Virus record (IMG/VR): IMGVR_UViG_3300045256_000830
Span: 1 to 40,348 of that record
Reading direction: 5' to 3' (one strand)
Length of the DNA: 40,348 nt
Source of the DNA: a virus
Part shown: positions 11,322 through 39,277 of the stretch, in pieces
How the letters are laid out: every line of letters begins with the position of its first letter
How positions within the stretch are numbered: position 1 is the stretch's first letter
Translations under genes and position numbers: made by a program
The notes under the pieces: model-generated
Told to the model about the DNA's origin: nothing
What the model saw: the letters and a program-made list of their open reading frames with translations, nothing else
The model's database searches: none

Positions 11322-11405
11322 GTTTCCCCTCCCCCCTCCTCCAGTCGCGGTGGCTCGCAGGAGAGCCTCGATGGGACCCCGAATTTTCCAAAAAGGAGCG
11401 ACGAG

Positions 11406-18795: not shown

Positions 18796-18817
18796 CGACC
18801 CGAAGCTACGACCGATC

Positions 18818-18879
18818 GCCGGCAAGACCAACGGCGACCCCGAAGACCGACCCGCTCCTGCCGACAAGACCGACGGCGA
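18818..18879 (+). repeat. 20-base imperfect direct repeat before capsid gene
   Basis: Copies at 18818-18837 and 18860-18879 match at 18 of 20 bases (GCCGNCAAGACC core), 42 bases apart. They lie in the 129-base gap between scaffold and capsid. The 42-base spacing is a multiple of three and the frame is open throughout, so they may be the remains of a coding repeat or part of the capsid leader RNA. Confidence 0.45.
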
Positions 18880-18924
18880 ACAACTCGACCGCCGAACGCT
18901 CCGCCCCGCGGAGGGAGTCTTGTC

Positions 18925-21618: not shown

Positions 21619-24600
21619 TGCCGTCCCGCGGTCTGCAATGGCAGGCGGTTCAGATTCCGCTGGCGGCGGGCCTCGACACCGGCCGGGACGTCCGCGCCGG
21701 GAACCCGCCGGGCCTGGACATCGCCCGGGACGTCGAGTTCGACGAGGAGAATGGCCTGCAGTCCCGCCGGCCGTTCGTCGACATCGGGTCGACGGCGATC
21801 GTCGGCGGCGGGTCGCTCACCAACCTGCGCCGGGTCGAGCGCAACGGCGACGAGCTGCTGGTGTTCACCGACACGCAGCTCTACAGCTGGAGCCCGCAGC
21901 AAGCGAAGTGGTCGCCGCGCGCGACGTACCTCGCGGTCGCCTCGGACGAGCGCGGCGTGTTCGTCGGGACCGGTGACCAGATCGACACCGACCGCGCCGA
22001 GCTCGGCGGCCTGATCGTCTACACCTGGGCCGAGGGCGGCGCGGTCTTCGCTGGCGCGATCGACAAGGCCACCGGCGCGGCCGTCGTCACGCCCACACAG
22101 GTGAGCACGGCGATCGGGCGTCCACGGGTCGTCGCGCTCGCGACGCGGATCCTCCTCTTCGTCCAGGCCACCTCGTCGACGCTCACCGTGCGCGTCATCG
22201 ATCCCGCTTCGCCGGCCGCGGGCATCGGCGGCGCCGGGACCACGGTCAGCAGCGCGTTCAACTCGTTCTACGACGTCGTGAAGGTCGACGGCCAGGATCG
22301 GGCGATCGGCGTGCTGCGCCTCTCGCCGACCACGAGCTATCTGGCGTTCGCCGTGACCGCGGCCGGCGCGGTCTCGACGTCGAGTAAGGCCCGGGCCGCG
22401 GACGGCCCGCTCGCGGTGACCACGACGATCGGCGGCGGCACGGCGGCGCTGGTCGTGCGGGCGAACGGCACGGCCATCGTCGGCGACCTCCTGACGACCT
22501 CGACGCTCGCCGACAACATCGTCGCCGCGACGCTCGGCACGGCCGCCGGGACGCCGGTCAACCAGGTGACCGCGGCGTTCGCGGACGCTACGACCGCGAC
22601 GGCCTACTGGGTGTCGGGCGAGACCAGCGACCAGACCGCGGGGCCGGTCTCGCTCGTCCGGCGCAACACGATCACCACGAGCGCCGTGCCCGGCTCGCAG
22701 GTCGACGTCATCCAGACGCTCGGCATCGCCTCGCGCGCGTTCGCCTACGCCGGCCGCAGCTACGTGTGGCTGGTGTTCGCGCTCCAGAACCAGGCGTCCA
22801 CGATCGCCGGCCCTTCGCCGCCGCTCGGAACGCGCGTGGTGCTCCAGAACACGTACTACCTCTACCGCGACGACGGGCTGCTGGTCGCGCGCGCGGCCGA
22901 CGAGGTGGCCGGCGGGTTCGCCCCGTCGACCGGCCGCCTGCCCGGGGTGGCGCCGTCGAGCTCGAGCGGCACGGAGTTCTCGTGGTGCGGCACGGCGCGC
23001 CGGGTGATCGAGGCCGGAGGCAACGAGCGCTCGGCGTACGACGCGCGCTCCCCGCGAGACATCACGTTCACCTTCGACAGCAACGCCGCTCGCCGGTGCG
23101 CGCGGATCGGCAAGACGCTCTACGTCACCGGCAGCATCCCGATGCAGTACGACGGCGCCGCGCTCGTGGAAGTCGGCTTTCTCGTCTACCCGCTCTCCCT
23201 CCAGGGCATCAACACGGCGACGGCGGGCGTGCTGAGCGCGGGGGCCTACACCTACAAGAGCACGCTGCGCTGGCAGAACGCGCAGGGCGAGCAGGAGCGC
23301 TCGACGACGGCCGTCGGCATGGACCTCACCACGGGCGCGTCGACCAAGAACCAGATCTTCACCTACGCGCTGACCGTCACCTTGAAGACGGCCGCGCGCA
23401 CCCCGCCGGCGATCGAGCTCTGGCGGACGCAGGTCAACCCGACGCCGGACAGCGACTCCTACCTGATCACGAGCAAGGACCCGACCGTGCTGTCGGGCGA
23501 CAACCGCTACATCGCGAACGACCCGACGCAGAACCTGCTCCCCGCCGCAGGGACGCTCGACAACATCGCTGACTCGGTGTTGCTCGCGCGAGAGGCGAAC
23601 CCCGAGAACGGCGACGTCCTGGAGTTCATCGCCCCGCCGGGCGCGGCCATCATGGTCGCGACCGACACGCGCGTCTTTCTCGGCGCCGTCGCCGGCGACC
23701 CCGACCGCGTGTGGTACTCGCGGCTCCGCGGCATCAACGAGATCGTCTCGTTCAACGAGGCGCTGACCGTCGACGTCCCGGCGCCGGGCGGCGCGATCAC
23801 GGCGATCGCGGTCGTCAGCGATGCGCTCATCGTGTTCCGGGCGACCGCGGTCTACGCGCTGCCGGGCTCCGGCTTGACGAACACCCTTGGCGGCCAGAAC
23901 TACGGCCCGCCGCGGATCATCTCGCAGGACATCGGCGCGGTGAACCACGAGGCGGTCGCGCTCACCCCGGCCGGGGTCATGTTCAAGAGCCGCAAGGGAT
24001 GGTTCCTGCTCACGCCGGACCTCGGCCTCAAGTACATCGGCGGCAAGGTGCTCGCGTTCGACGACGAGGTGATCCTCGGGATCGACGTCGTCGAGACGCA
24101 GCACCACGTGCGCGTGCTGTCCGCGGCGCGCATGCTGACCTGGGACTACCTCGTCGGCGAGTGGTCCGAGTGGACGGTGACCGACGGGCTCCACTCGACC
24201 GTCTGGCAAGGGCGCCACGTCTACCTCGCGGCCGCCGGCGTGCGCGTCCAGTCCGACTCGTTCGCGGGCGTCACCTACGGCACCGACGTCGAGCTCGCGT
24301 GGGTCAAGCCGTCCGACCTCCAGGGCTCTCAGGCCGTGCGGCGCATCATGGCCCTCGGCGAGACGCGCGGCGCCCACCTCGTTCGGGTGCGGGTCGCGCG
24401 CGACTACCAGTACCTGAGCCCGGGGAACCCCGACTACTTCGACGACGAGATCTGGACGCAGAGCCCGAACCTCCTCGGCAGCGCGCTGCAGGTCGAGCAC
24501 TCGCCGTCCCAGCAGGACCTCGAGGCGATCAAGGTCCGCCTGACCGCGGTCACCGCTGGCACCTCGGCGACGCTCAGCACGCTCACGCTCGACCCGGTGC

Positions 24601-25067
24601 AGGTGCCGACCCTCACGACGCCCTGGGCGGCGGTGCTGACCGCGCTCGCGCCGGGCGCGTACGGCAACCGATTCGCGCTCGCGGTGGCGATGGAGTACGT
24701 CGCCGGCCCGTTCGTGATCGACGTGCGCGACCACTTCGTGTGGTCGACGCCGCTCGGTCGCTGGCGTGAGGCGGTGAACACGATCGGTGTGCGCATCGCC
24801 GCGACCGAGGTCGCCCCGCCGACCATCGGCCAGCTGCAGGCGGCGATCGCCGCGGCGACGAAGCTCGCGACGATCACCACGCCGGACACCGCCTCGAAGG
24901 TGCTGAGCCCGCTGTCCTCGAACTGGAGCCAGTCGACCGCCGCGCCGTTCACGAGCGGCGCCTACGGCGTGCCGACGGGCGAGTCCATGAAGCTGACCGG
25001 CCTCGCGTTCGAGGTCGGCGCCAAACCGGGCCTCTATCGGCGCCTGCCGCCGGCCCAGAAGGTGTGA
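21618..25067 (+). CDS. Very large tail protein, nozzle/stabiliser-like, 1149 aa
   Basis: At 1149 residues one of the largest proteins in the window; mostly beta-rich with repeated Thr/Ala/Val segments, as for a multi-blade tail structure. The N-terminal start (Leu-Ala-Ala-Gly-Leu-Asp-Thr-Gly-Arg-Asp, and Ser-Arg-Arg-Pro) resembles that of P22 gp10-type hub/nozzle proteins of podovirus-like phages. GTG 21618 shares a base with the preceding stop. It is placed after the connector genes, as expected for a tail stump. Confidence 0.65.
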   Translation: MPSRGLQWQAVQIPLAAGLDTGRDVRAGNPPGLDIARDVEFDEENGLQSRRPFVDIGSTAIVGGGSLTNLRRVERNGDELLVFTDTQLYSWSPQQAKWSPRATYLAVASDERGVFVGTGDQIDTDRAELGGLIVYTWAEGGAVFAGAIDKATGAAVVTPTQVSTAIGRPRVVALATRILLFVQATSSTLTVRVIDPASPAAGIGGAGTTVSSAFNSFYDVVKVDGQDRAIGVLRLSPTTSYLAFAVTAAGAVSTSSKARAADGPLAVTTTIGGGTAALVVRANGTAIVGDLLTTSTLADNIVAATLGTAAGTPVNQVTAAFADATTATAYWVSGETSDQTAGPVSLVRRNTITTSAVPGSQVDVIQTLGIASRAFAYAGRSYVWLVFALQNQASTIAGPSPPLGTRVVLQNTYYLYRDDGLLVARAADEVAGGFAPSTGRLPGVAPSSSSGTEFSWCGTARRVIEAGGNERSAYDARSPRDITFTFDSNAARRCARIGKTLYVTGSIPMQYDGAALVEVGFLVYPLSLQGINTATAGVLSAGAYTYKSTLRWQNAQGEQERSTTAVGMDLTTGASTKNQIFTYALTVTLKTAARTPPAIELWRTQVNPTPDSDSYLITSKDPTVLSGDNRYIANDPTQNLLPAAGTLDNIADSVLLAREANPENGDVLEFIAPPGAAIMVATDTRVFLGAVAGDPDRVWYSRLRGINEIVSFNEALTVDVPAPGGAITAIAVVSDALIVFRATAVYALPGSGLTNTLGGQNYGPPRIISQDIGAVNHEAVALTPAGVMFKSRKGWFLLTPDLGLKYIGGKVLAFDDEVILGIDVVETQHHVRVLSAARMLTWDYLVGEWSEWTVTDGLHSTVWQGRHVYLAAAGVRVQSDSFAGVTYGTDVELAWVKPSDLQGSQAVRRIMALGETRGAHLVRVRVARDYQYLSPGNPDYFDDEIWTQSPNLLGSALQVEHSPSQQDLEAIKVRLTAVTAGTSATLSTLTLDPVQVPTLTTPWAAVLTALAPGAYGNRFALAVAMEYVAGPFVIDVRDHFVWSTPLGRWREAVNTIGVRIAATEVAPPTIGQLQAAIAAATKLATITTPDTASKVLSPLSSNWSQSTAAPFTSGAYGVPTGESMKLTGLAFEVGAKPGLYRRLPPAQKV

Positions 25068-26007: not shown

Positions 26008-28559
26008 TGGCGCTCCTGGACGACCTCGAGGACCCGGCGCTCGCCAGCCAGCTCTACGGCGCGCCGCCGGCGTCGCTCGCCGACGCCCTGCCGCCGCCGT
26101 CGACCGTCGACCCGTGGGCGTGGGTCCCCGACGAGTGGAACACCCAGCCCGAGGCGGCGCCCGAGAGCGTCGCCCCCGCCGGCGCGCCGGATCTGCCCGG
26201 CGCCGTGCCCGGCGGGCCCGCGATCGTGCCGATCGAGACCGCGGCCGCGCCCGCGCTGGCGCCCGTCGACCCCGCGGTCGCGGCCGTGCCCGAGGCCGCG
26301 ACTGCCGCAGTGCCGACCGGCATCCCCGGCGCCCCCGCGCCGATCGGCGCCGACGCCGGCCCGGTGCTGGGGCCGCCCGACGTCACCGCGCCCAACCCGC
26401 TCGCCGGGACCCCGTTCGACACGTCGCCGGCGAACCCGCTGTTCGGCTTCCCCGCGCCCGCCTTGCCACCGCCGAAGGCGATCGACGTCGGCGGCGGTCA
26501 GCTCGCCGCGGGCGCGCCGCAGACCTACCCCGCGGAGTTACCGCCGGCGGAGCTGCCGTTCGGCCCGCAGCCCCCGAGCCGCGTCGCCAGCCTGCCCGAC
26601 TTCACCATCCACACCGAGACCAACGCGGAGAAGTACGCGACCCATCCGTGGGACAACCCGAACGAGGCCGAGCGCGACGCCGCGGCGCGCCACCTCGCGC
26701 TCACCGATCCCGAGGGCTTCAGCCGCTACGTCACCCACCTCGCGGCCGCGAAGGAATCAGCGCGCGCCGCCGAGAGCTCGCGCATCGAAGCCGAGAACCT
26801 CCAGAAGGCGAACGAGAACGTCGCGGCGCTCCAGCGCGCGAGCGCCGCGGCGCAGGCCAAGACGGACCAGATCGCCGCCGAGTCGCAGCACCTGACCTCG
26901 CGCGCGCTCGACCGCAAGCGCTGGTTCCGCAACCTCAGCACGGCCGGCAAGATCGCGACCGTCATCAACGCGCTGGTCGGCGGGCTCGTCTCGAAGCCCG
27001 GCGGGCCCAACCTCGGCGCCGACTTCATCACCAAGCACATCGACGACGACATCAACGACCAGAAGGCCGACATCGAGAACCAGCGCGCCAGCCTCGCCGA
27101 CCGCCGCAGCGCGGTCGCCCAGGAATTCGCGCGCACCGGCGACCTCCTCCACGCGACCGAGGTCGTCCGGCTCGCGAGCTACAACGCCGCGCTGCACGAC
27201 CTGCAGACCGTCCAGCAGAACTTCGACCCGCGCGGGACGAGCTTCGCCGAGATCGGTCAGCAAGCGCAGGCGATGCAGGCGCGGATCGCCGCGGCGAAAG
27301 AGAACGTCCGGAAGACCGCGTTCGACGAGGAGATCAAGGCAGAGCAGCTCCGGCAGACCAACGCGGTGAACGCGGAATCGCGACGCCACAACCGCGTCGA
27401 GGAGTCGATCGCGTGGACCCGCGAGGGCCGCGAGGCGAGCAAGGACCAGTCGGACAAGACCGTGTGGTCTCCGGATCAGCTGAAGGTGCTCAACCCCGGC
27501 CAGGCCGTGCCGCCGATCCCGATGACGCTCAAGGCGTACGGCCAGTGGATCGAGACCCAGAAGACGGGCGAGCAGCACAAGAACGCCGCGCTCCAGAACA
27601 ACCCCGACGAGCGCAACCGCGAGCTCGCGGTCGGCGGTGTGCTTGACTCGAAGAGCGAGCCGGTGCGCTTCCGCAGCACCGAGATCGCCGGCCACGTCGC
27701 GCAGGGCAAGGAGGACGCCGAGGAGATCGTGCGTCTGACCGACGAGCTCGCCGGCATGATCCGCAAGAACGGGTGGCAGAGCGACCTGTGGAAGAGCCCG
27801 GAATGGCGCAAGGCCACGTCGAACTACAACTCGATCATCATCCGCAAGAAGGAGCAGGACAAGCTCGGCGTGCTCACCGGGCCCGACGTCGAGATCGTGA
27901 CCGGCGAGATCGGATCGAAGAATCCGACCGAGGCGCGGAACCCGCTGCCCGGGCTCGAGCAGTTCCGCCACAACGTCGTCGAGGGCTTCAACGCGAAGCT
28001 GCGCGCCCAGGCGGTGCTGCCCGACGGCCGAACGGTCCAGCGCTGGGATCCGGTGGCGCCGCCGACCGAGGCCGCGGCCGCCGACAAGCTCTCGGGCAAG
28101 ACGTTCGGCGCGGCGATCGACGAGAGCGAGCCCGGCGCGATTCGCAAGGGGCTCGACCTCCGCAGCCTGTCGCCGGAGGGGACCGCGGGCGTCGCGCGCG
28201 ACGCTGCGCGCGCGGCGGATCGCAGCGCCCAGGTCGGGCCCACCGGTCTCGCGCCCGAGGACACCACGAAGGTCGCCGCGGCGATCAAGGCGACCCGCAC
28301 GGGCACGCCGGAGGCGCGCGCGGCCGCGGTCGGCCGGCTGGTCACCTGGGCCTCGAGCGATCGGCCGGACATCACGAGCGGCGTGCTCGGCCTCATTCAG
28401 GCCGAGAACCCGGACCTCTACGCGACCGTGCTCGCGCAGCTGCCGGAGCACCTGCGGGACGACCGCGCGGACACCGACGCGATCGGCGCCGCGCTTCGCG
28501 CGCAGGTCGCCCCCATCGAGCTGCCTCCGCCTCCACCGACGAAGCGGAAGGGGCGGTAG
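26007..28559 (+). CDS. Large internal virion (ejection) protein candidate, 850 aa
   Basis: The ATG shares one base with the preceding stop. The first 200 residues are Pro/Ala-rich and disordered; the rest is a long charged helical protein with coiled-coil segments (about 230-430). No enzymatic motif is visible. Size, composition and position after the tail stump genes fit a podovirus ejection protein that forms a conduit for DNA. No homologue is recognised by name. Confidence 0.6.
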   Translation: MALLDDLEDPALASQLYGAPPASLADALPPPSTVDPWAWVPDEWNTQPEAAPESVAPAGAPDLPGAVPGGPAIVPIETAAAPALAPVDPAVAAVPEAATAAVPTGIPGAPAPIGADAGPVLGPPDVTAPNPLAGTPFDTSPANPLFGFPAPALPPPKAIDVGGGQLAAGAPQTYPAELPPAELPFGPQPPSRVASLPDFTIHTETNAEKYATHPWDNPNEAERDAAARHLALTDPEGFSRYVTHLAAAKESARAAESSRIEAENLQKANENVAALQRASAAAQAKTDQIAAESQHLTSRALDRKRWFRNLSTAGKIATVINALVGGLVSKPGGPNLGADFITKHIDDDINDQKADIENQRASLADRRSAVAQEFARTGDLLHATEVVRLASYNAALHDLQTVQQNFDPRGTSFAEIGQQAQAMQARIAAAKENVRKTAFDEEIKAEQLRQTNAVNAESRRHNRVEESIAWTREGREASKDQSDKTVWSPDQLKVLNPGQAVPPIPMTLKAYGQWIETQKTGEQHKNAALQNNPDERNRELAVGGVLDSKSEPVRFRSTEIAGHVAQGKEDAEEIVRLTDELAGMIRKNGWQSDLWKSPEWRKATSNYNSIIIRKKEQDKLGVLTGPDVEIVTGEIGSKNPTEARNPLPGLEQFRHNVVEGFNAKLRAQAVLPDGRTVQRWDPVAPPTEAAAADKLSGKTFGAAIDESEPGAIRKGLDLRSLSPEGTAGVARDAARAADRSAQVGPTGLAPEDTTKVAAAIKATRTGTPEARAAAVGRLVTWASSDRPDITSGVLGLIQAENPDLYATVLAQLPEHLRDDRADTDAIGAALRAQVAPIELPPPPPTKRKGR

Positions 28560-30863
28560 GTGGGCTCCTACCTCGCACCGAACGGGGAGGTCGTCGTCAT
28601 CGACGACCCGGCGCTCGCGCAGCGCGCGGTCGACACCGGCTACAAGGCGATCACCGCGCAGTCGGCGGGGCCGGCGCTCACCCAGCAGGCGACGGCCGAT
28701 CAGGGCGCCGCCACGGCGGCTCTCACCGCCGGGCTGTCCGGGCTGACGCTGGGGGCGTCCGACGCGCTGCTCGCGGGCGTCGGCGACAAGGGAACGACGC
28801 GGGCGCTGCGCGAGACCCGCGAGGCGCACCCCGTCGCGTCCGCGATCGGAACGGGGATCGGGGCGCTCGCGCCGGCGGTGCTAAGCGGCGGCGAGTCGCT
28901 GCTCAACGCGCCCTCCCAGATCGGCCGCGCGGTCGCCGGCGCCGCGGAGCGCGGCGGCCTGGGCAGGCTCGGCGGTGCGATCGCCGGCGGCGCGGCCGAG
29001 GGCGGCATCTACGGCGCGGGCAACGCGGTCAGCGAGCTCGCGCTGCAGGACGACCCGCTGACGATGGAGCGCGTCGCGTCGAGCCTCTCCAGCAACTTGC
29101 TGTTCGGCGCGGCGACCGGCGGCGTCCTGGGCGGCGCGTTCAACGTCGCCGAGCGCGGGCTCTCGCGAGCGAAGGGCGCGATCGACGACGCGCTCGAGCG
29201 GTCAGCGGCGAAGGCGCGGGTGCTGACGCCGGCGGATGCGGCGGGCGTCGAGGACGTCGCCACGCTCGACAAGACCAGCCTCAAGGCGGCGCGCGAGGCC
29301 GAGCTCGACGCGATCGACCAGGCGCTCGCTCCCAAGCGCGACGAGTTCGTCGACGCCCTGAAGGCGAGCCACGAGGCCTCGGACGCCGAGAAGGTCTGGC
29401 TGTTCGCCAAGGACCACCCGAACAAGTACGTGAACGAGCTCGCGGCCGTGTCCTACCGGGTGAACAAGGGAATCCGGCGCCAGCTCGACAACATCGAGGG
29501 GCTGAAGGCGAACCCGAGCCGAGTGCTCGGCCTCCTCCAGGAGGAGGACCAAATGCTCGCGCGGATGGAGCTGGCCCTGCCGAACGACCTTAAGGAGTTC
29601 CAGCGTGGATTCGACCTCGCGCCCGGCGAGATCCGCGCGGACATCGTCGGCAACCGCGTGCCGGGCTTCGTGGTCGGCAAGGGCGGGCTCCGAGCGGACT
29701 CGCCGCTGATCGACAAGGAGGTCGAGCGCCAGATGCTCGAGCGCTACGGCAGCATGGACGCGCCGCAGCTGCCGACCAACCTCCGGGTCGCCTACGAGCA
29801 CCTCGGCGAAGCGCGGTTCCGGAACAAGGAGCTGCGCAACCAGCTCGCCACGCTCACCGCTGAGCCCACGTCGGAGCGGCTCGACGCGATCGACAACGCC
29901 ATGGACGTCCTGCGGATGCCCAAGGAGAAGGAGAGTTCGGCGGCCAAGAAGCTGCTCCACGCGATTCCGGTCGTCGGGCGGATCGCGGAGGTCGCCGACA
30001 CGGGCTCGGGCGCGCTGGCTGGGCTCAAGCTCGCGGCGGGCGGCGCGGCGCGCAAGACCGCGCAGCTCACCTCGAAGGTGCTCGGCGCGGCGGAGCGCGG
30101 CGCGAAGGTGGTGCCGCCGCTCGCGACCAAGGTGCTCGCGTCGGTGCGGTTCGCGCCGCGCGACGAGCGCAAGGCCGAGCCGGACCCGACGTCGCTCGCC
30201 GGCCTGTACAAGGCGCGGACCGACGAGATCAAGAGCCAGACGGCCTACGACGCGAACGGGACTCCGAGGCTGCGCCCGGAGGCGCGCGCGAAGATGGCGG
30301 CGCAGCTGCGCGGGCTCCGCGCGACCGACCCGATCGCCGCCGACCGCATCGAGACCCTCGCGGCGCGGCGCATCGAGTACCTCTCCGCGCTGATCCCGCG
30401 CCGGCCCGACTTCGGCACCCCGAACTTCGGCAACGACGGCTATAAGCCGAGCGACCTCGAGATGAGGTCGTACGCGCGTTCGATCGCGGCGGCCGAGGAT
30501 CCGTCGGGCGTCGAGGAGCGCGTCATCAACGGCACCGTGACGCCGGAGGACGCGGCCGCCTACTGGGCCATCTACCCCGAGCGTGGCCAGCACTTCAAGA
30601 TGCAGTACCTCAACGCGGTGTCGGGCAAGGCGGAGCGCCCGTCGCTCCGCCAGCGGATCGCGTTCGGCATGTTCGCCGGCGTGCCCGTCGACCCGTCGAT
30701 GCATCCGACGGTGCTCGCGGCGCTACAGGCGCCGTTCGCCGCCGAGCCCGGCACCGAGGGCGGCACCCAGGCGCCCAAGGCGTCGCCGCAGTTCGGCTCG
30801 ATCAAGAAGTCGCCCGACGCGCCAACGCCGGCGCAGACCCGCGCGCAAGGAGGCATGACGTGA
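28560..30863 (+). CDS. Large internal virion (ejection) protein candidate, 767 aa
   Basis: GTG 28560 follows the previous stop directly. The N-terminus begins with Val-Val-Val-Ile-Asp-Asp; residues 60-200 are Gly/Ala-rich and hydrophobic enough to pass through a membrane, then a charged helical body and a Pro/Ala-rich tail. This composition is typical of ejection proteins. No peptidoglycan-cutting motif seen. Confidence 0.6.
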   Translation: MGSYLAPNGEVVVIDDPALAQRAVDTGYKAITAQSAGPALTQQATADQGAATAALTAGLSGLTLGASDALLAGVGDKGTTRALRETREAHPVASAIGTGIGALAPAVLSGGESLLNAPSQIGRAVAGAAERGGLGRLGGAIAGGAAEGGIYGAGNAVSELALQDDPLTMERVASSLSSNLLFGAATGGVLGGAFNVAERGLSRAKGAIDDALERSAAKARVLTPADAAGVEDVATLDKTSLKAAREAELDAIDQALAPKRDEFVDALKASHEASDAEKVWLFAKDHPNKYVNELAAVSYRVNKGIRRQLDNIEGLKANPSRVLGLLQEEDQMLARMELALPNDLKEFQRGFDLAPGEIRADIVGNRVPGFVVGKGGLRADSPLIDKEVERQMLERYGSMDAPQLPTNLRVAYEHLGEARFRNKELRNQLATLTAEPTSERLDAIDNAMDVLRMPKEKESSAAKKLLHAIPVVGRIAEVADTGSGALAGLKLAAGGAARKTAQLTSKVLGAAERGAKVVPPLATKVLASVRFAPRDERKAEPDPTSLAGLYKARTDEIKSQTAYDANGTPRLRPEARAKMAAQLRGLRATDPIAADRIETLAARRIEYLSALIPRRPDFGTPNFGNDGYKPSDLEMRSYARSIAAAEDPSGVEERVINGTVTPEDAAAYWAIYPERGQHFKMQYLNAVSGKAERPSLRQRIAFGMFAGVPVDPSMHPTVLAALQAPFAAEPGTEGGTQAPKASPQFGSIKKSPDAPTPAQTRAQGGMT

Positions 30864-31399
30864 CCGATCTCAACCGCATCAACTCTTCCAACCTCGACGC
30901 GTTCACTTCGGCCGGGGTGCCGGCGCTGGCGAACCGCGACACTGGCGCGTTCACGACGTGGGGCGTGACGCTCGCGGCAAACACGACCTACCTGTTCCCG
31001 CTCGGCTCGTTCCGCGCGGCCGCGCCCGGCGAGACCCTGAACAACTCGGTCCACCTCTGGGGCAAGACCGCGGGCCTCATCATCACGAGCGCGAACATCG
31101 ACGACACCAACGTACTGCCGTTCCGCTCTCCCGACGGGCGCGGTGACGCGGTGTTGACCGACTTCGACATCACGAACACCGGCGCGTGGATCCCCGAGAC
31201 GCCGTCGAACGCCGACGTGCGCTTCGTGGGCACCGGCTGGTCCGCGAGCGGCGGCATCGTGACCGCGGCCGGAACCGGCGTCGGTGGCGCGATGTTCCTC
31301 CTCGGCAACATGGCGTCGCTGCGCAAGCGCCTCCGCGTCGTCGTCGGCGCGACGGGCGGGACCCTGCAGGTCGCGATGCACGGCGTGGGCGGCGCGTGA
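30860..31399 (+). CDS. Virion protein, beta-rich, 179 aa
   Basis: GTG 30860 overlaps the previous stop by four bases. A 179-residue beta-rich protein: Asn-Thr-Thr-Tyr-Leu-Phe-Pro-Leu-Gly and Thr-Asn-Thr-Gly-Ala-Trp, suggesting a jelly-roll or lectin-like domain. It precedes a second beta-rich gene with a similar composition. Probably part of a fibre or spike; not recognised precisely. Confidence 0.55.
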   Translation: MTDLNRINSSNLDAFTSAGVPALANRDTGAFTTWGVTLAANTTYLFPLGSFRAAAPGETLNNSVHLWGKTAGLIITSANIDDTNVLPFRSPDGRGDAVLTDFDITNTGAWIPETPSNADVRFVGTGWSASGGIVTAAGTGVGGAMFLLGNMASLRKRLRVVVGATGGTLQVAMHGVGGA

Positions 31400-32199
31400 T
31401 CGGCGCCCTGATCGGCTCGTCGATCGGCGCCCAGGTCGGCGCGAACCTCGGCGACGGCACGAGCGCGGGCGGTGGCATCGTCGGCGTGACGCGCGACGCC
31501 GCCTCCGGCTGGTACTTCCCGGCGAGCGCCGGCGAGTGGACGATCTTCATGGCGGCGGCCGGGCTCGCGACGGGCAACCCGTCGAGCGGTCACCTCTGCC
31601 AGGAGCCGAGCGGCAACCTCGCCGACTCGATCGGCTCGGTCACGCTCACGCAGAGCGGCGCGGGTCACCTCTACCAGCAGACGGTCGCCGGGTTCACGCG
31701 CAAGGCGGTCACCACCGTCGACGGCACGGCGAACCAAAAGTGGATCAACAGCACCGTCGCGCCGAACCCGAACACGACGAGCACCGGCTACCTCGCGGCG
31801 ATCCGGATGCCGGCGGCGAACCCCGCGGCCGCGCGCGACCTCCTGGCCAACGGCGGCACGCTCGATCTGCGGATGGCGGCGACCGGCAAGATCAACGCGG
31901 TCAACGGCGCGACCACCGCGGGAACCGGATCGCCGGTCGGCACCGTGCAACTCGTCTACCTGCAGCGCGACATCACGAACAGCCTGTTCACCTGCTACAC
32001 GCTGCAGGAGAAGATCGTCGGCACGTTCGGCGCGGTCGTGTCGAACCCGATGTTCGTGCTCGGCGGCCAGACGACCGTCGCCGCCGATGCCGGCTACCTC
32101 GCGGACTACCTGTTCGCCGGCGCCGCCGCCGAGCAAACCAGCGGGCAGGTCAAGACCCTGTTCCAAACCCTCACCGGCCTCGCCGTCCCTTGGAGCTGA
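31396..32199 (+). CDS. Probable receptor-binding/spike protein, 267 aa
   Basis: GTG 31396 overlaps the previous stop by four bases. A Gly/Ala/Ser-rich N-terminus is followed by a beta-rich domain (about 40-260) with aromatic residues spaced as in laminin-G/concanavalin-like folds (Trp-Tyr-Phe, Phe-Thr-Cys-Tyr). Position before the lysis genes and composition suggest a receptor-binding role. The fold assignment is an inference. Confidence 0.5.
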   Translation: MIGALIGSSIGAQVGANLGDGTSAGGGIVGVTRDAASGWYFPASAGEWTIFMAAAGLATGNPSSGHLCQEPSGNLADSIGSVTLTQSGAGHLYQQTVAGFTRKAVTTVDGTANQKWINSTVAPNPNTTSTGYLAAIRMPAANPAAARDLLANGGTLDLRMAATGKINAVNGATTAGTGSPVGTVQLVYLQRDITNSLFTCYTLQEKIVGTFGAVVSNPMFVLGGQTTVAADAGYLADYLFAGAAAEQTSGQVKTLFQTLTGLAVPWS

Positions 32200-32201
32200 C
32201 C

Positions 32202-33614
32202 ATGCGCGATCGCGTCTCCCTGTCCTTGCTCGAGCTGCTCGAACTCCCCGTGATCGCGCTGGCGGTCGCGATCCTGGCACTGGCCGCGTGCCGCGACAGC
32301 CGCGAGACGCCGCGCGCGCTGGTCTCGCAGACGCTATGCGCGTGCCCATGCGCCGAGGATGCCGGCGCGACGGACGTCGATGCGACGCCGGATGCTCCGC
32401 CGGCCGATGCCGAAGCGCCGATCGACGCCGGCCCGCGCGTGATCGATCTCGTGGCGCCGTGGCCGCGCCACGTGATCACCGCGGGGGCGAGCGTCGGGCT
32501 GACCCGCGGGGCCGACGGCGTCGACCTCGTGCACGGCTGCGTCGCGACTGGCTGGGAGGAAGGCGGGCTCGTGTCGCTCGCCTGCCGCGCGGGGACGGCC
32601 TGGACCTCGACGCCGGTGGCGACCGGGCTGGTCGGCGTCGAGGACGCGAAGATCGCCGACGTCGACGGCGACGGGCTCGACGACGGCGTGAGCGGCACTG
32701 ACCTCCCCGACGGCCGCGTCTACGTCTCGTTCGCGAACCCCGGCGCGCCGTACACCACTGTCGAGATCCCCGCCGCGCGCGCCCACAACCGCGTGATGCA
32801 GGTGGCGGTCGCCGGCGGTGACATCTACTTCGGAACGCGCGTCGGCACGCCCGCAAAACCCGCGGTGATCGGCGTTCTGCGCAACCCGGGCGGCTCGTTC
32901 GCGCGAGACGGCGCGGCGTGGTCCTACGAGCGGATCACGCTCGCCGGCTGGGCGATGAGCGTGGTTCCCCGCGACGTGAACGGCGACGGCCTGATGGACG
33001 TCGTGGTCAGCGACCGCGACGCCTATCGCGACGCCGCCGGCGTCACGCAGTGGGGGCTGTACGGTGCGCGCTGGGCCGAGCGGCGGCCCGATGGCTCGTG
33101 GCTGCACCACCCGATCAGCCCGAAGGCTGGCAGCCACGTCGGCGAGACGCCCGGCGATGAGTTCTTCCTGACGATCGTCGACGACCACACCATCGTCGAC
33201 TGCACGTCGAAGTTCACGCCGACGAACCGCATCGCGATCCGCCGCACGACCGACTGGCTGACCTGGACACAGGAGCTGGTCCCCGACGTCGCGAACGTCG
33301 GCGCGTGCCAGCAGCCCGCGATGGCAGACATCGACGGCGACGGTCGGCTCGACATCGTCGTGTCGACGCACGAGGTCGACGCAGGCGGCACGTGCTCGGG
33401 CGTCGCGCTCGCGTGCTCGACGCGCTCGGGCGTCTTCTGGCTCCGCAACACCGGCGCCGGCTGGGCGCGAGGCGAGATCAGCGGCCCCGAGGGCTCCAAG
33501 TTCGACAACCTGATCCTCGCCGACATGGACGGCGACGGCGATCTCGACGTGCTCGACAGCGAGCAGGTCGACCAGCTCGGCGTCGTCTGGTTCGAGAACC
33601 CGGGCGTGCCGTAG
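32202..33614 (+). CDS. FG-GAP/VCBS-repeat lipoprotein carried in the late operon
   Basis: A 470-residue surface lipoprotein. Lipobox Leu-Ala-Ala-Cys with C30; an Asp/Ala/Pro-rich linker (about 50-78) follows. Four calcium-binding Asp-X-Asp-Gly-Asp-Gly-type loops, at 153-161, 258-266, 376-384 and 441-449, mark FG-GAP/VCBS blades of a beta-propeller. Such propellers bind ligands or proteins in the periplasm or outside the cell. This is not a normal virion protein: the linker and design resemble myxobacterial host lipoproteins, so it is probably a cargo (moron) gene, perhaps altering the lysogen's surface or excluding other phages. Confidence 0.85.
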   Translation: MRDRVSLSLLELLELPVIALAVAILALAACRDSRETPRALVSQTLCACPCAEDAGATDVDATPDAPPADAEAPIDAGPRVIDLVAPWPRHVITAGASVGLTRGADGVDLVHGCVATGWEEGGLVSLACRAGTAWTSTPVATGLVGVEDAKIADVDGDGLDDGVSGTDLPDGRVYVSFANPGAPYTTVEIPAARAHNRVMQVAVAGGDIYFGTRVGTPAKPAVIGVLRNPGGSFARDGAAWSYERITLAGWAMSVVPRDVNGDGLMDVVVSDRDAYRDAAGVTQWGLYGARWAERRPDGSWLHHPISPKAGSHVGETPGDEFFLTIVDDHTIVDCTSKFTPTNRIAIRRTTDWLTWTQELVPDVANVGACQQPAMADIDGDGRLDIVVSTHEVDAGGTCSGVALACSTRSGVFWLRNTGAGWARGEISGPEGSKFDNLILADMDGDGDLDVLDSEQVDQLGVVWFENPGVP

Positions 33615-34105
33615 TGGCGGACATCTCCGCCTCGAGCCTGATCACGCCTGGCATGATCACCGCCGGCGGTTCGGCCGTGCTCGTGTTCGTCCGCTGGCTC
33701 GCCATCCTCTGGAAGGAGGAACGGCAGGCCGAGCGCGCCGCCGCGATCGTCGCGGCCGATGTCCAGCGCGACTTCCAGGCCAAGCAGGCGGCGGCGCGCG
33801 CCGCGTTCGAGGCCGGTATTGCCGCGGCCGCGCGAGCGGACAACGACAAGATGGTCGCGGCGCTCGTCGAGCAGGCGCGCTCCTCCACGGCGCTCGTCGG
33901 CAAGCTCGCCGAGGTGAGCGCCGTGCTCGGCGGCAAGCTCGACAACGTCTCCGACAAGATCGACGAGCTGCGCGAGCGCACGCCCGTCGAGGGGATCCCG
34001 ATCCCCGACATGCAACGCGAGCCCTCCGAGCCGCGGCCGCGCCGGTCGCTTCCTCGACCTGTTCTGCGCCCCGCCTCGCGCGGCGGCTTCGACCCCAACG
34101 AATGA
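33614..34105 (+). CDS. Membrane-anchored coiled-coil protein (holin/spanin-like), 163 aa
   Basis: GTG 33614 shares a base with the preceding stop. One membrane segment (about 12-32: Leu-Ile-Thr-Pro-Gly then Val-Leu-Val-Phe-Val-Arg-Trp-Leu), then a long charged coiled coil (about 35-125), and an Arg/Pro-rich tail. This plan is that of inner-membrane spanins or of coiled-coil holin partners. It sits between a lipoprotein and the holin-like gene, so a lysis role is likely. Confidence 0.6.
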   Translation: MADISASSLITPGMITAGGSAVLVFVRWLAILWKEERQAERAAAIVAADVQRDFQAKQAAARAAFEAGIAAAARADNDKMVAALVEQARSSTALVGKLAEVSAVLGGKLDNVSDKIDELRERTPVEGIPIPDMQREPSEPRPRRSLPRPVLRPASRGGFDPNE

Positions 34106-34118
34106 AAGGCACCCGCTC

Positions 34119-34802
34119 ATGAAGACAACCCTGCTCGACCTGTTCACCTCGAAGAAGTTCCTCGCCGCGCTGTCCGCGGTGGCCATCTACGTCGCCGGCC
34201 GCTTCGGCTTCGACCTCGACCCGGCGGCGCTCGATCGGATCTTCGCCGCGTTCCTGGTCTACGTCGGCGCCCAGGGCGCGGCCGACTTCGGCAAGAGCGC
34301 GGCGCTGATCCACACGCAGGCGGCCAACGACAACGCTCCCGCGCCTTCGCCTGCGGCGACCTCGGCCCGGTTCCCGGCGGTGCTCGTCCTGATGATCGCC
34401 TGTTTCGGCCTCGCCACGACCCAGCTGGCCTGCTCGTCCTGGCGCGCGCGCACCGCGAACGGCGTCGGCGCGTTCCTCGACTGCGAGGCGCCGCACGTCG
34501 ACCCGAACCTGCTCGCCGAGGCGAAGACCGTCGCGATCGCCGCGGTCCAGAAGTGGATCTCGGGCGACGGCCACACCGACACCGCCGGCCTCAAGAGCGC
34601 CGCCGCGCCGCTCAAGTCCGACCTGATGCGGTGCGCGTTCGACGGCGCGATCGCCGCGCTCGCGACCCCGACCCCGCCGGCGCAGAAGCCGGGCGAGGCC
34701 GTGCGCGTCGCGGCGTTCGAGGTCGACGGCGGCGAGCTGCGCGCGAAGGCCGCGCTGGTCCGCGAGGAGCTGGGCTGGCCGGCGCAGGCGGTGAGCCGGT
34801 GA
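34119..34802 (+). CDS. Holin-like protein fused to a lipoprotein-type C-terminus
   Basis: Residues 1-66 look like a small holin with two hydrophobic helices (Lys-Lys-Phe-Leu-Ala-Ala-Leu; Ile-Phe-Ala-Ala-Phe-Leu-Val-Tyr-Val). An Ala/Pro/Asn linker follows, then a second signal-like segment (about 85-105) ending in Gln-Leu-Ala-Cys, a good lipobox, and a soluble C-terminus. In most phages these two parts are separate genes (holin and outer-membrane spanin). An in-frame ATG at codon 92 (34392) could give a free lipoprotein. Confidence 0.65.
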   Translation: MKTTLLDLFTSKKFLAALSAVAIYVAGRFGFDLDPAALDRIFAAFLVYVGAQGAADFGKSAALIHTQAANDNAPAPSPAATSARFPAVLVLMIACFGLATTQLACSSWRARTANGVGAFLDCEAPHVDPNLLAEAKTVAIAAVQKWISGDGHTDTAGLKSAAAPLKSDLMRCAFDGAIAALATPTPPAQKPGEAVRVAAFEVDGGELRAKAALVREELGWPAQAVSR

Positions 34803-35005
34803 CCGTCGCCGAGCTGATCGCGTCCCTGGCGGCATTTCCCGCAGACGCCGAGGTCATCGTCGACAAGGTGGACCCCAGTCCGCTCAGCGGTGTTCGGTCT
34901 CAGATGTACGTCGCTAGGACAACCTGGTCCGGCGAGCTTGTCCACGACGATGACGCCGAACCCGGCGTCGGTGTCCGCGCAGTCGTCCTCGAGCCGGTGG
35001 ACTGA
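34799..35005 (+). CDS. Hypothetical protein, 68 aa
   Basis: GTG start overlapping the previous stop by four bases; the stop shares one base with the next ATG. An acidic 68-residue protein beginning Val-Ala-Glu-Leu-Ile, with Ala-Glu-Val-Ile-Val-Asp-Lys-Val, a typical small alpha/beta domain. No function recognised. Confidence 0.55.
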   Translation: MTVAELIASLAAFPADAEVIVDKVDPSPLSGVRSQMYVARTTWSGELVHDDDAEPGVGVRAVVLEPVD

Positions 35006-35352
35006 TGCGCACATGGCAACTCGAGCTTGGCGCGGTCGCCGCGATCCTCGTGATCGTCGCGCTTGCGACCGGAGGTGGTGCCCTCGAGCTGGTCGGCGCC
35101 GGCGCCGTGACGCTGTCGTTCGCGCATGCACAGGTCGCGGACCGGCTCGCCGAACGCGAGGCCGCACGATCGGCCGCGACCGTCGAGTGCCACCGCTGGG
35201 CAACACGCTACCTCGTCGGCAAAGAGGCATTGTGGCTGACCTATTTCGTCGCGCATCGCTCGTGGTCGGCGCTCGCCGGCGTGGTGCTGTTTCTGGCGTA
35301 CGCGCCGTGGCGTCGCTGGTGGCGCGCTCGCCATCCGCTCGGAGCGCCCTGA
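35005..35352 (+). CDS. Membrane protein in lysis cassette, 115 aa
   Basis: A 115-residue protein with about three hydrophobic segments (about 8-24, 27-42 and 87-102) and charged turns (Cys-His-Arg-Trp-Ala-Thr-Arg-Tyr-Leu). Its location among holin- and lysin-like genes suggests a lysis or membrane-modifying role, but the family is not recognised. Confidence 0.6.
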   Translation: MRTWQLELGAVAAILVIVALATGGGALELVGAGAVTLSFAHAQVADRLAEREAARSAATVECHRWATRYLVGKEALWLTYFVAHRSWSALAGVVLFLAYAPWRRWWRARHPLGAP

Positions 35353-35353
35353 C

Positions 35354-35725
35354 GTGCCCGACCGCGGCTCCCGCCCGCGCACTCCGAGCCGCGTCGTCGA
35401 GACCCCGGACATCGTCGACCTCGCGCAGGGACTCCGCGACAGCAAGCTCCTGTCGACGCGCGCCAACGAGCGGGTGACGCACTTCCTGTTCCTGACGCTG
35501 CCGGAGTGGCGCGTGCGGTTCCCGCCGCAGCTGAGCTGGCAGTTCAACGACCCCGCGCTCGACGTCTACGACGTTCCGGGCTGCCGCGCCGAGGCCGCGC
35601 AGCACCGCATGGGGTCCGTCGCCCGCGCGCTCCACGTGCGCGGGTTCGCGCTGGTCGTCTTCCACGACCACGACAACCGACAGCCGATCTGCGAGTGCCC
35701 GGCTCGCGGGAGGGGAGAGACATGA
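35354..35725 (+). CDS. Hypothetical protein in lysis cassette, 123 aa
   Basis: GTG 35354 closely follows the previous stop; the TGA overlaps the next ATG by four bases. A 123-residue protein with a basic N-terminus, a helical middle and Phe-His-Asp-His-Asp-Asn near the C-terminus. The His/Asp cluster resembles a metal-binding site; this is only suggestive. Short M15-type peptidases have a similar size and often occur in such cassettes. Confidence 0.5.
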   Translation: MPDRGSRPRTPSRVVETPDIVDLAQGLRDSKLLSTRANERVTHFLFLTLPEWRVRFPPQLSWQFNDPALDVYDVPGCRAEAAQHRMGSVARALHVRGFALVVFHDHDNRQPICECPARGRGET

Positions 35726-35868
35726 CCTGTCCGCGTCCCGACACCAGCATCCCGCTGCCGCCGAGCGGCCCCATCGTCAGCACCACGCAGCGGACCGGCG
35801 CGATCAGCGTTCGGCTGGTTCCGTTCGTGCCTCGCGTGCGCGACGTCGACACGCGGTGGCCGCGATGA
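35722..35868 (+). CDS. Short hypothetical protein, 48 aa
   Basis: A 48-residue frame joined to both neighbours by four-base overlaps. It is Pro/Ser/Val-rich and has no signal or membrane segment. The perfect packing at both ends suggests it is translated. Function unknown. Confidence 0.45.
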   Translation: MTCPRPDTSIPLPPSGPIVSTTQRTGAISVRLVPFVPRVRDVDTRWPR

Positions 35869-36659
35869 CCCCGCTGTTCGTCGACGTCTACCCCGGCGAC
35901 GGCCGCAAGGACTGGACCGCGTTCTGCGCCGCGGGCCCGCCGTGGCACGGCGTCATCTTCAAGGCATCGCAGGGGCTGCGCTACAGCTACCTCGAGTGGC
36001 TCACGCACAATCGCAACCAGCTGCGCGACGCGGCCGGCGATCGCTTCGGCGTCGACCTGTTCGACGGCATGTACCACTTCCTTGACCTCGCGGTGGACGG
36101 CGCTGCACAGGCCGACTTCTTCATGAAGAACTGCGAGGCGAGCGGCGGCGAGCGCGTCGGGACGTTGTGGGGCATGGTCGACGTCGAGCGCGGCGGGCAG
36201 GCGCCGGCGTTCCGCAACCCATCGCGCGCGCTGGTCGAGGACCGTGTGCGTAGCTTCGCAGAGCGCTACCAGCAGCTGACCGGGCGCGCGGCCACGCTCT
36301 ACGGCGGCGAGCTGCTGCGGAGCGTGGGCGTGCAGGACCGGCTCGGCTGCGCGCGCTCCGCGATCGCGCTCTACAGCGCCGAGCTCCGCGGCTCGACCGG
36401 CGGGACCGCGGACCTCCTGCGCCGGACCGGGACCGATCTCGAGCACCTGCTCCTGTGGCAGTACCGCGGGACCGAGCCGCAGGAGGCCGCCCCGCACGGG
36501 CTGCCGATGGTCGCGCCCGGCTGCGGCGAGCGCGTCGACATCAACGCGCTGACCTGGCCCGGCGGCCTCGCGGCGGTCCGCGCCGGGCTGTGGGCAGAGC
36601 GGCCGCCGATCTCCTCACTTGTTGGAGGAGCGCTGATTGACGGGGACGATCGCCTTTGA
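35865..36659 (+). CDS. Endolysin, GH25 muramidase
   Basis: Cuts the host peptidoglycan glycan strand at the end of infection. A 264-residue glycoside hydrolase family 25 domain: Val-Asp-Val-Tyr (D7), Val-Ile-Phe-Lys-Ala-Ser-Gln-Gly (30-37), Tyr-His-Phe (70-72), the catalytic Asp-Val-Glu (106-108), and later Leu-Trp-Gln-Tyr and Asp-Ile-Asn. No signal peptide, so export should depend on the holin-like proteins just upstream. ATG 35865 is chosen for its four-base overlap with the previous stop; GTG 35856 is possible. The 3' end overlaps the convergent DUF2335 gene by about 45 bases. Confidence 0.88.
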   Translation: MTPLFVDVYPGDGRKDWTAFCAAGPPWHGVIFKASQGLRYSYLEWLTHNRNQLRDAAGDRFGVDLFDGMYHFLDLAVDGAAQADFFMKNCEASGGERVGTLWGMVDVERGGQAPAFRNPSRALVEDRVRSFAERYQQLTGRAATLYGGELLRSVGVQDRLGCARSAIALYSAELRGSTGGTADLLRRTGTDLEHLLLWQYRGTEPQEAAPHGLPMVAPGCGERVDINALTWPGGLAAVRAGLWAERPPISSLVGGALIDGDDRL

Positions 36660-37103
36660 GTTGCGTTGGTCCGCCTCTCGGTCATCGGTTTTAGCGCCCA
36701 GTGGCTTTCGTGACCGCAGCACAGCGATGAAGGTGGCGGACGCCTGTGCAAGTACAGCCACGACGCCGGTAGTTGTGGCCCCGCAGAGGATCAAGACAGT
36801 TCCGCAAAGCAGCCCCGCCAGAGAAATCACGGCTCCCGAGATCTGCGACCGGCTCACGATCGCCTGCTGCTTCCCCACGAGCACCAACTCTTGGAGGGAA
36901 CGTGCGTGCTCGTGGTCCTGATCCTTCTCCGCCATCCGGACGAGTCGATTCGCCAGACCAGGCTCGATGTTCTCGAAGGCCTGCAGCATCGGCGGGGGCG
37001 GGACGGGCCCTGTGAATGAAAAACGACCGGCTGACACGGATACTACTTCGTGCTCGTCGTCGTTATCGTCGTCGTCGTCGTCGTCGTCGGATCCCCGTGA
37101 CAT
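36615..37103 (-). CDS. DUF2335 membrane protein
   Basis: Starts with an Asp-rich stretch encoded by the GAC repeat, then the DUF2335 signature: Phe-Thr-Gly-Pro-Val-Pro-Pro-Pro-Pro followed by Leu-Gln-Ala-Phe-Glu-Asn-Ile-Glu-Pro-Gly, then a charged helix (Met-Ala-Glu-Lys-Asp-Gln-Asp-His) and two hydrophobic segments at the C-terminus. The start is uncertain: ATG 37103 is used, while 37118 and 37199 are in frame. DUF2335 proteins are small membrane proteins of unknown role, often phage-linked. Convergent with the endolysin. Confidence 0.75.
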   Translation of the reverse strand: MSRGSDDDDDDDDNDDEHEVVSVSAGRFSFTGPVPPPPMLQAFENIEPGLANRLVRMAEKDQDHEHARSLQELVLVGKQQAIVSRSQISGAVISLAGLLCGTVLILCGATTTGVVAVLAQASATFIAVLRSRKPLGAKTDDREADQRNSKAIVPVNQRSSNK

Positions 37104-37371
37104 TGACCTCGACGGCATCGAGGGCCCAGACGTTCGATGGCTCCTCGTCCGCTCGATCGCCTGCTTGTTCTTGTTTCTGCGTTGCCGACTCCGAGACATT
37201 CCGTGCCTCCACGAGCGCCGCTATGGCTCGGGCGAACACCGAGTGTAAACGCTGCTCAGGAGTTCCGGAATGAGGGAGGTAGATTGAAAGAGGTGGCACC
37301 ACGACGCCCGCGGAACTGTCGAAGCCGAGGGCAAGGCCACGAACGGCAGCCTCCATGCGCTTCTCGTCCAT
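37063..37371 (-). CDS. Hypothetical protein overlapping the DUF2335 gene
   Basis: A 102-residue protein with a compact alpha/beta start (Met-Glu-Ala-Ala-Val-Arg-Gly-Leu), Pro-Leu-Ser-Ile-Tyr-Leu-Pro and a helical region, ending in poly-Arg read from the GAC repeat. It overlaps the start of the DUF2335 gene in another frame. ATG 37371 is used; the frame is open to 37425. Not recognised. It could be the upstream member of a two-gene operon with DUF2335. Confidence 0.5.
   Translation of the reverse strand: MDEKRMEAAVRGLALGFDSSAGVVVPPLSIYLPHSGTPEQRLHSVFARAIAALVEARNVSESATQKQEQAGDRADEEPSNVWALDAVEVNVTGIRRRRRRRR
37068..37088. repeat. Trinucleotide microsatellite, seven GTC/GAC units
   Basis: Seven perfect copies of GTC (GAC on the minus strand). 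On the minus strand it encodes poly-Asp at the start of the DUF2335 protein and poly-Arg at the end of the overlapping upstream gene. Gain or loss of units would change tract length in both proteins without shifting either frame. Confidence 0.85.
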
Positions 37372-37472
37372 TGCTACATCGTAGCATCGGTTCTGGAGCG
37401 CGCGCCTAGCTGATCGGTCTGACATCCCCAGGCATAACCTGCTAGGCGGTGCCCCAAAGCGTGCCGCACAGG

Positions 37473-37494
37473 CTCAGAATTCTGAGGTTTTTTT
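37473..37494 (+). terminator. Intrinsic terminator, plus strand
   Basis: A perfect palindrome, CTCAGAATTCTGAG (37473-37486), followed by G and seven T. The hairpin has a five-base stem with an AATT loop. In the plus direction it would stop transcripts of the long structural and lysis operon that run past the endolysin; the nearest plus gene ends 800 bases before. The minus strand has no U-run, so it would not stop the leftward operon. 37495-37611 holds nothing else I can support. Confidence 0.6.
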
Positions 37495-37611
37495 CCGATC
37501 AGAACGTCGCCGAAAGGGAACTTTCATCACATGGCACAACTGCCGCAGAACGCAGTTCGCACCGATCTTCGGTGCAGCACGAAGCCACACGCCTTACGCA
37601 CGCTCCAGACG

Positions 37612-38307: not shown

Positions 38308-38765
38308 CGCTGCTTGTGCTCCGCGATGATCGCGTCGATCTCGGCGCGGCTGAACTGCAAGCGCCCGTCGACCTTGATGCGCTTGAGCTGACCGCGGCGG
38401 ATCCAAGCGTTCGCTGTCACCTTGGTCACCGCGAGGAGTCGGCGAGCGCCGTACAGGTCGACGAACGGCCCGTTGGGGATCGTGACCGCCGCGCGCGCCT
38501 CCGCGCGCTTGACCCGCGCCCTGTGTTCGGACTCCATCCGTGCTCTGTGCGCGGTGATCTCCGGATCCTCGCCGGCGATCGCGGGGCGAGACGCGAGCGC
38601 GTGCAATCGCCCTAGGCGCCTAGCGTCGGTGACCTGATCGTCCTCGTTCATGTCGCGCTGGGCGCGAGGGTGCGTTCGGGGCCGATCGGCGCTGAACGCG
38701 CGCGCGACCTCCTCACGCACGATCTCTCGAATAGCCTCGAGGTCGCGTCGGCTGAGTCCGGTCAT
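38304..38765 (-). CDS. Excisionase/MerR-like HTH protein, 153 aa
   Basis: ATG 38765 overlaps the lipoprotein stop (ATGA). The N-terminus (about 1-24) is a short helix rich in Glu/Arg; a charged linker follows, and the C-terminal 50 residues form an HTH_17 domain (Leu-Tyr-Gly-Ala-Arg-Arg-Leu-Leu-Ala-Val-Thr-Lys-Val-Thr-Ala-Asn-Ala-Trp) with Gly-Arg-Leu-Gln-Phe-Ser-Arg-Ala-Glu-Ile-Asp. A shorter start at 38651 is possible. Coupled to the next HTH gene, it could be a directionality factor or a regulator. Confidence 0.7.
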   Translation of the reverse strand: MTGLSRRDLEAIREIVREEVARAFSADRPRTHPRAQRDMNEDDQVTDARRLGRLHALASRPAIAGEDPEITAHRARMESEHRARVKRAEARAAVTIPNGPFVDLYGARRLLAVTKVTANAWIRRGQLKRIKVDGRLQFSRAEIDAIIAEHKQR

Positions 38766-39277
38766 GGCGAGCGGAGCACGGCGCACCGCTTCGCGCGCAG
38801 CACCAGGTCGGGATCGAGCTCGTTCTTCGCCAACACCGTGTCGCAGGTGGCTACCGTCGGATAGCAGAGCTCGAGCTTTTCGCCGGTCACGACGCGTGTC
38901 ATCGCGAAGCAGGCGAACGCGGATCTGGCCGCGCACGTCGACCACGTGTCGTAGGCCCGATAGGCGTAGGGATGCCGCTTCTCCGGCGTGTCCTTCTCGG
39001 CCGGTGACAGGGACTCGAGGAGCCGTCCCATCGTGTAGGCGACCTGCCCTTCACGGTGCAGCTGGCATGCCTCGCGGTTCTCGAAGCAACCGCCCTCGAG
39101 GTCGGTTCCGGCTTGGCCGTAGCACCACCGCGGCTCGGCGGAGAGCAGTGGCCTACCGTCGTCGGTGGCTGCCACCGGGCTGGCTTCCGGCGCCGGAGCC
39201 GGCGCGGGCAACATCCTCGAGTGCCGCCGATGGCAGCCGACCACAAGCACAACACCCATCGCCCACGTCCAGCGCAT
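38762..39277 (-). CDS. Cys-rich lipoprotein, 171 aa
   Basis: A signal sequence with Val-Val-Gly-Cys lipobox (C15), a Pro/Ala-rich linker, and a Cys-rich domain with Trp-Cys-Tyr, Gly-Gly-Cys-Phe-Glu-Asn-Arg-Glu-Ala-Cys and later Cys pairs that should form disulphides in the periplasm or outer membrane. Its size and Cys spacing resemble small secreted proteins common in myxobacteria. It is coupled to the following HTH gene by four bases, unusual for a lipoprotein. Confidence 0.7.
   Translation of the reverse strand: MRWTWAMGVVLVVGCHRRHSRMLPAPAPAPEASPVAATDDGRPLLSAEPRWCYGQAGTDLEGGCFENREACQLHREGQVAYTMGRLLESLSPAEKDTPEKRHPYAYRAYDTWSTCAARSAFACFAMTRVVTGEKLELCYPTVATCDTVLAKNELDPDLVLRAKRCAVLRSP

Follow-up and report, generated by a model that had tools for sequence, protein, structure and literature searches.

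The gene at positions 32202-33614 of the window, the 40,348-nucleotide virus record that was analysed as a whole, encodes an FG-GAP β-propeller protein with a lipoprotein-type signal. Sequence comparison shows that it belongs to a phage-specific family and occupies an exchangeable slot, flanked by tail and lysis genes, in a group of temperate phages. Because related phages have differing proteins there, either exported or tailspike-like, its product probably serves the phage late, to block or process the surface to which the phage binds, and is probably not a stolen host protein. The sequences also show a slot of varying content, occupants with export signals, a tight setting in the late operon and, in one relative, a domain common to the slot protein and the tail gene.

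The window encodes a serine integrase, helicases and primase, a terminase, a portal and a major-capsid-like protein, as well as an SU10-type adaptor, an S74 tail protein and a GH25 endolysin. Residues ~8-202 of its first frame are RecA, 90% identical to that of a deltaproteobacterial MAG and 88% to that of a Kofleriaceae MAG. Because this match ends at base 606, beside the integrase gene, the left end of the window is assigned to the host recA of a Kofleriaceae-like myxobacterium; the remainder of recA is absent from the window. The virus appears to be a prophage integrated inside recA of a soil Kofleriaceae-like myxobacterium. In the frames at 1-711 and 593-2338, recA is cut after codon ~202 directly beside the large serine integrase, and the insertion probably inactivated recA of the host. 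The features around the slot are as follows.

30860-31399, + strand: conserved tail-region gene upstream, colinear in relatives
31396-32199, + strand: tail gene directly before the slot, with anchor motif MIGxRxG..GxRxG and a ConA/LamG-like jelly roll (alignment, AlphaFold2, Foldseek)
32192-32195, + strand: Shine-Dalgarno GGAG, within the 3' end of the preceding tail gene
32202-33614, + strand: FG-GAP β-propeller protein P0001 with lipoprotein-type signal, 470 aa
32202-32291, + strand: signal region, lipobox LALAAC, predicted lipidation at Cys30, in agreement with the PS51257-type rule
32334-32441, + strand: Ala/Asp/Pro-rich linker, residues 45-80, absent in homologue L164
32658-32684, + strand: calcium-type loop DVDGDGLDD (residue 153)
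32973-32999, + strand: calcium-type loop DVNGDGLMD (residue 258), within a PF13517 stretch
33327-33353, + strand: calcium-type loop DIDGDGRLD (residue 376), PF13517/PF01839
33522-33548, + strand: calcium-type loop DMDGDGDLD (residue 441), PF13517
33614-34105, + strand: protein with TM segment and coiled coil, first of the lysis-type genes, 1-nt overlap with the stop of the slot gene
34119-34802, + strand: TM/holin-like and lipobox-like protein, conserved
35856-36659, + strand: GH25 endolysin (PF01183)

The FG-GAP gene is flanked by a tail gene and lysis-type genes, as the original prediction had placed it. It starts 2 nt past the preceding stop, and its TAG overlaps the GTG of the next gene by 1 nt. 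A scan of 28000-37500 for sites of the sigma-70 type alone found nothing promoter-like, and no promoter-like or terminator-like site was seen at the gene. The frame is open throughout from an ATG, its GC3 of 0.93 is of coding type, and its codon-position GC resembles that of the neighbouring genes. The ATG start is supported by the GGAG at the right distance, 6 nt, a spacing that is identical in L164.

The N-terminus of P0001, MRDRVSLSLLELLELPVIALAVAILALAAC, has the lipobox LALAAC with Cys30. It satisfies a PS51257-type lipoprotein rule (K/R in the n-region, an uncharged h-region, a lipobox and Cys at 15-35) that only 10 of the 516 gene-like frames across this phage group satisfy. The n-region is unusual in having E11 and E14 and no net positive charge, which calls for caution on the signal. 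Here and in the relatives the export signals were identified by pattern, not by SignalP, and are putative. The linker has 10 Ala, 6 Pro and 6 Asp among its 36 residues. Loops of the type D-x-[DN]-G-D-G-x-x-D number exactly four, versus a mean of 0.001 in 5000 shuffles of the protein. The predicted combination of signal, lipobox, Asp/Ala/Pro linker and four calcium-loop blades is thus borne out.

P0001 is matched in three stretches by PF13517 (FG-GAP_3) with an E-value of 5e-20 and 72.2 bits against a curated cut-off of 26.9, and by PF01839 (FG-GAP) at 3e-6. It is like FG-GAP/VCBS-type propellers (PF13517, PF01839) in passing this cut-off and in having four Ca-type DxDGDG loops. The phage subfamily differs from other FG-GAP proteins in a conserved start, ID..APW..H.I..GA..G..GADGVD, and a conserved end, KFDN...DMDGDGDLDV..EQ..QLGVVWFENP, both of which are matched by host proteins only partly. 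Some planctomycete FG-GAP proteins have a similar order of blade motifs, a possible lead to a deeper cellular origin. The AlphaFold2 model of P0001, of low confidence (pLDDT 53, pTM 0.53), is all-β with about 28 strands, compatible with 7 blades. Together with the four loops, this suggests four calcium-loop blades that probably lie within a seven-bladed propeller. In a Foldseek search the low-confidence model came closest to the aldos-2-ulose dehydratase propeller (E 1.4e-7), and a fucose lectin, integrins and sugar-active propellers followed; the matches support a propeller but give no function. A sequence search of the PDB gave nothing significant, and neither P0001 nor L164 had a PHROG tail match. 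A match to PHROG 28538 (E 0.006) and weak matches to PliI and TcdB-mid were dismissed as repeat or signal noise. Within the limited collection of papers searched, none dealt with FG-GAP proteins of such phages.

In phages with major capsid proteins 54-76% identical, the structural genes are colinear. The occupant of the slot varies among relatives. Nothing of this kind follows the tail gene in G004/G006, G026, L218, L223 and L231. Signal-less β-helices of the pectate-lyase/tailspike type are found in L029, L170, L173, L174 and L234 (by family matches), L177 (a weak match) and L181 (by homology to L030), with matches to the tailspike family phrog_2234 down to E 3e-19 among these signal-less proteins. 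Other occupants have an export signal: the FG-GAP proteins of the window, L164, L216 and L238; the GloVer propeller of L166; β-helices with a lipobox in L030 and L224 and with a Sec signal in L219; the exported protein of L032; and that of L230, with a weak match to a phage depolymerase C-domain. In L030, L032, L166 and L224 the signal was assessed visually and is short, with Cys at 12-14. The slot is taken by other genes in L232, L235 and L236. Among 43 related records (7 + 36), many of them fragments, PF13517 found a match only in that of L164. Prophage relatives were also sought in genome contigs through the major capsid protein, and none was confirmed.

The full-length relatives of P0001 are all phage-encoded and at the same locus, from the tail lectin-like gene to the lysis genes. 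P0001 is 41% identical to the L164 protein over 404 aa, covering residues 81-470, 31% to that of L216 over residues 64-467 and 33% to that of L238 over residues 67-467. The N-terminus is a lipobox in the window and L164 and a TM anchor in L216 and L238. The original prediction had held that presence in purified virions as a tail component, together with recurrence at the same place in unrelated phages, would speak against a captured host protein. As far as the place is concerned, such recurrence was found: the capsid protein of the L164 phage is 45% identical to that of the window, and in L216 and L238 the capsid search did not detect one. The slot also has ties to the tail. The L216 FG-GAP protein has a C-terminal domain that matches the body of the adjacent anchor-motif tail gene at 45% identity (E 9e-37), and the lipobox β-helix of L030 matches phrog_2234 and is homologous to the signal-less β-helix of L181. 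Thus tail-type modules and membrane-anchored slot proteins use common domains. The FG-GAP protein of L238 has the same C-domain as that of L216, and the L238 tail gene is of the LamG type.

The LamG-like gene at 31396-32199 lies directly upstream (2 nt) of the FG-GAP gene, likewise in the relatives, and we infer that it is a receptor-binding tail gene. The AlphaFold2 model of its product (pLDDT 74) was matched by Foldseek to trans-sialidase lectin domains and the Pan3 tailspike. In the search for LamG relatives, the initial set was without conserved columns and a closer subset was used. The N-terminal anchor motif, MIGxRxGxxxGxRxG, is conserved and the bodies behind it are interchangeable: LamG-like, a SASA/SGNH esterase in place of it in G004/G006, and another domain in L216. 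Anchor-motif genes were seen at 31396-32199 in the window, 13452-15002 (- strand) in L025 and 10581-12158 (- strand) in L166.

The best explanation, which we put forward tentatively, is a membrane-anchored protein, made late, whose binding or processing of the glycan or receptor used by the tail stops re-adsorption and superinfection. The gene would be translated together with the late genes. Since the signal would be processed and the protein lipidated, a Ca-binding propeller would stand on the envelope of the infected cell, presumably displayed at the outer-membrane surface. There it would bind or process the surface glycan or receptor recognised by the neighbouring tail protein. Superinfection would thereby be blocked, and progeny would not adsorb again to the dying cell or to its debris. 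In support, P0001 and its three full-length relatives all sit at the slot with a membrane-targeting N-terminus, other relatives hold unrelated exported proteins there, and the start and stop of the gene abut late genes. The domain ties to the tail seen in L216 and L030 and the precedent of Llp in T5 and BF23 count in its favour too. The fucose lectin and sugar-active propellers among the Foldseek neighbours of the low-confidence model are also consistent with it. Against it, the n-region is not positively charged, several relatives have short signals, the fold model is weak, 470 aa is far above the size of the very small Llp and Rtp45, and a slot held in common with tailspikes also fits a virion protein. 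No sequence link was found from P0001 to known superinfection-exclusion proteins. Recognition, exclusion or sugar binding at the host surface, all raised in the original prediction, is plausible for an FG-GAP lipoprotein-type protein of the late operon.

The receptor-blocking phage lipoproteins known to us are tiny and aimed at outer-membrane proteins; Llp and Rtp45 act from the periplasm. In T5 and BF23, llp adjoins the receptor-binding gene; although the Llp proteins of the two phages are not homologous, each blocks its own receptor (PMC4728585; PMC9586334). Llp, a small lipoprotein (PMC9586334), excludes superinfection and presumably lessens phage inactivation on debris (PMC4728585; PMC9586334). 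Rtp45, a lipoprotein of ~6 kDa from LptD-targeting phages, acts similarly to Llp (PMC12685063). The window gene resembles Llp (T5, BF23), Cor and Rtp45 in its lipoprotein-type product, in its place beside a putative tail recognition gene and in the non-homologous occupants of the slot in related phages. Llp, Cor and Rtp45 are very small periplasmic proteins of another fold, whereas the proteins here are propellers and β-helices of ~300-700 aa, some TM-anchored, with a putative function. Since P0001 (470 aa) is far larger and of another fold, it was not filed as a member of the very small Llp/Cor type, although by analogy it may work in the same way.

A broader reading, possible but more doubtful, is that one slot displays tail-recognition-type domains (propellers, tailspike β-helices and the tail gene's own domain) on the membrane of the infected cell. 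Each would pair with the tail protein next to it, as a self-matched blocker or an enzyme that destroys the receptor; this would amount to Llp/Cor exclusion in a large, modular form directed at glycans. If large propellers and tailspike-like folds are held in the host membrane by a lipid or TM anchor and match the tail specificity of their own phage, phages would have a general means of keeping out rivals and shielding progeny where the receptors are glycans. The host receptors of the little-studied myxobacterial phages would also become easier to approach, and an exported protein between tail and lysis genes would be a searchable genomic signature.

A component of the virion, with a receptor- or glycan-binding propeller at the tail tip and the hydrophobic N-terminus as a virion or assembly anchor and not an export signal, is an unlikely alternative. 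Many relatives have tailspike-family β-helices at this position, the L216 FG-GAP protein shares a domain with a tail gene, and the gene belongs to the structural operon. Tails of short-tailed phages can contain propellers, the SU10 nozzle being an example (PMC9509320), and the window has an SU10-type adaptor. However, the four FG-GAP N-termini are of two unlike types, all lipoboxes or TM anchors, and lack MIGxRxG, the anchor motif of the neighbouring tail gene. A lipidated Sec substrate would moreover exit the cytoplasm, the site of virion assembly. The nozzle role would more likely fall to the conserved 1147-aa protein at 21624-25067, and identity of P0001 with the SU10 nozzle propeller was set aside. 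In related phages the slot can hold tailspikes and depolymerases (phrog_2234, PF12708, PF13229, PF25692), with an export signal in some copies; P0001 differs in its lipobox and does not match these families by sequence.

A membrane-anchored enzyme (lyase, hydrolase or dehydratase), trimming polysaccharide late to aid release or dispersal and not acting as a blocker, seems rather improbable. Its slot mates are pectate-lyase-type β-helices, the neighbouring tail gene can carry SASA esterase modules, and the Foldseek ranking, headed by a dehydratase propeller above other carbohydrate-active propellers, also points this way. That ranking comes from a low-confidence model, however, and P0001 has no significant sequence match to any carbohydrate-active enzyme and no assignable catalytic residues.

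Relatives were sought in collections of Myxococcota, a handful of other genomes, and viral, phage and plasmid sequences. Since 94 of 96 Myxococcota genomes have FG-GAP matches, P0001 may have a remote host origin. The host-homologue search that had been proposed, run on 379 Myxococcota genomes, gave repeat-level matches only, with no host protein aligned end to end with P0001. A P0001/L164 profile found none at E 1e-15 in these genomes, with few candidates scored per genome. Locally, the same profile gave 1.9e-39 for L216 versus 2.8e-26 for the best host protein, which is repeat-rich, on a small fixed scale not comparable with the 379-genome search. With phmmer, the L164 and L216 proteins each matched in one long stretch (79-470 and 52-456), versus many short repeat matches for host proteins, mostly at 363-470 of P0001. 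The Myxococcota protein L184 shares with P0001 a lipobox, a low-complexity linker (TPDP) and FG-GAP repeats, but only ~106 aa align, at 37%, and no phage gene was matched on its short contig. A tblastn search of 50,697 phage records and 72,556 plasmids with P0001 gave no match. Recent capture of a myxobacterial surface protein, as first proposed, is therefore unsupported, the nearest full-length relatives being in phages at the same place. That the gene is a captured host surface protein altering the predation, motility, adhesion or recognition of the lysogen is very improbable: such lipobox-linker-FG-GAP proteins do exist in Myxococcota and the linker is host-like, but the family is spread along a phage lineage at one locus and the codon-position GC is like that of the neighbours. 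An effect on predation or motility is unlikely as the main role because of the tight late-gene packing with no promoter-like site nearby.

Two other viral contigs also encode FG-GAP proteins with lipobox-like signals, at 3906-5291 of L179 and 17914-19473 (- strand) of L180. These FG-GAP lipoproteins (L004/L179 and L005/L180, 24-32%) were rejected as relatives since they score no better than host repeats; the window's other genes were unmatched in the stretches read. The product of 34119-34802 has a TM/holin-like segment and then a lipobox-like stretch, TTQLACSS. L029, L164 and L166 have a separate small lipoprotein there, possibly an o-spanin or a second exclusion lipoprotein. In the lipobox background scan, a gene-like frame near the right end of the window, at 38762-39277 (- strand), had a strong lipobox, MRWTWAMGVVLVVGC.
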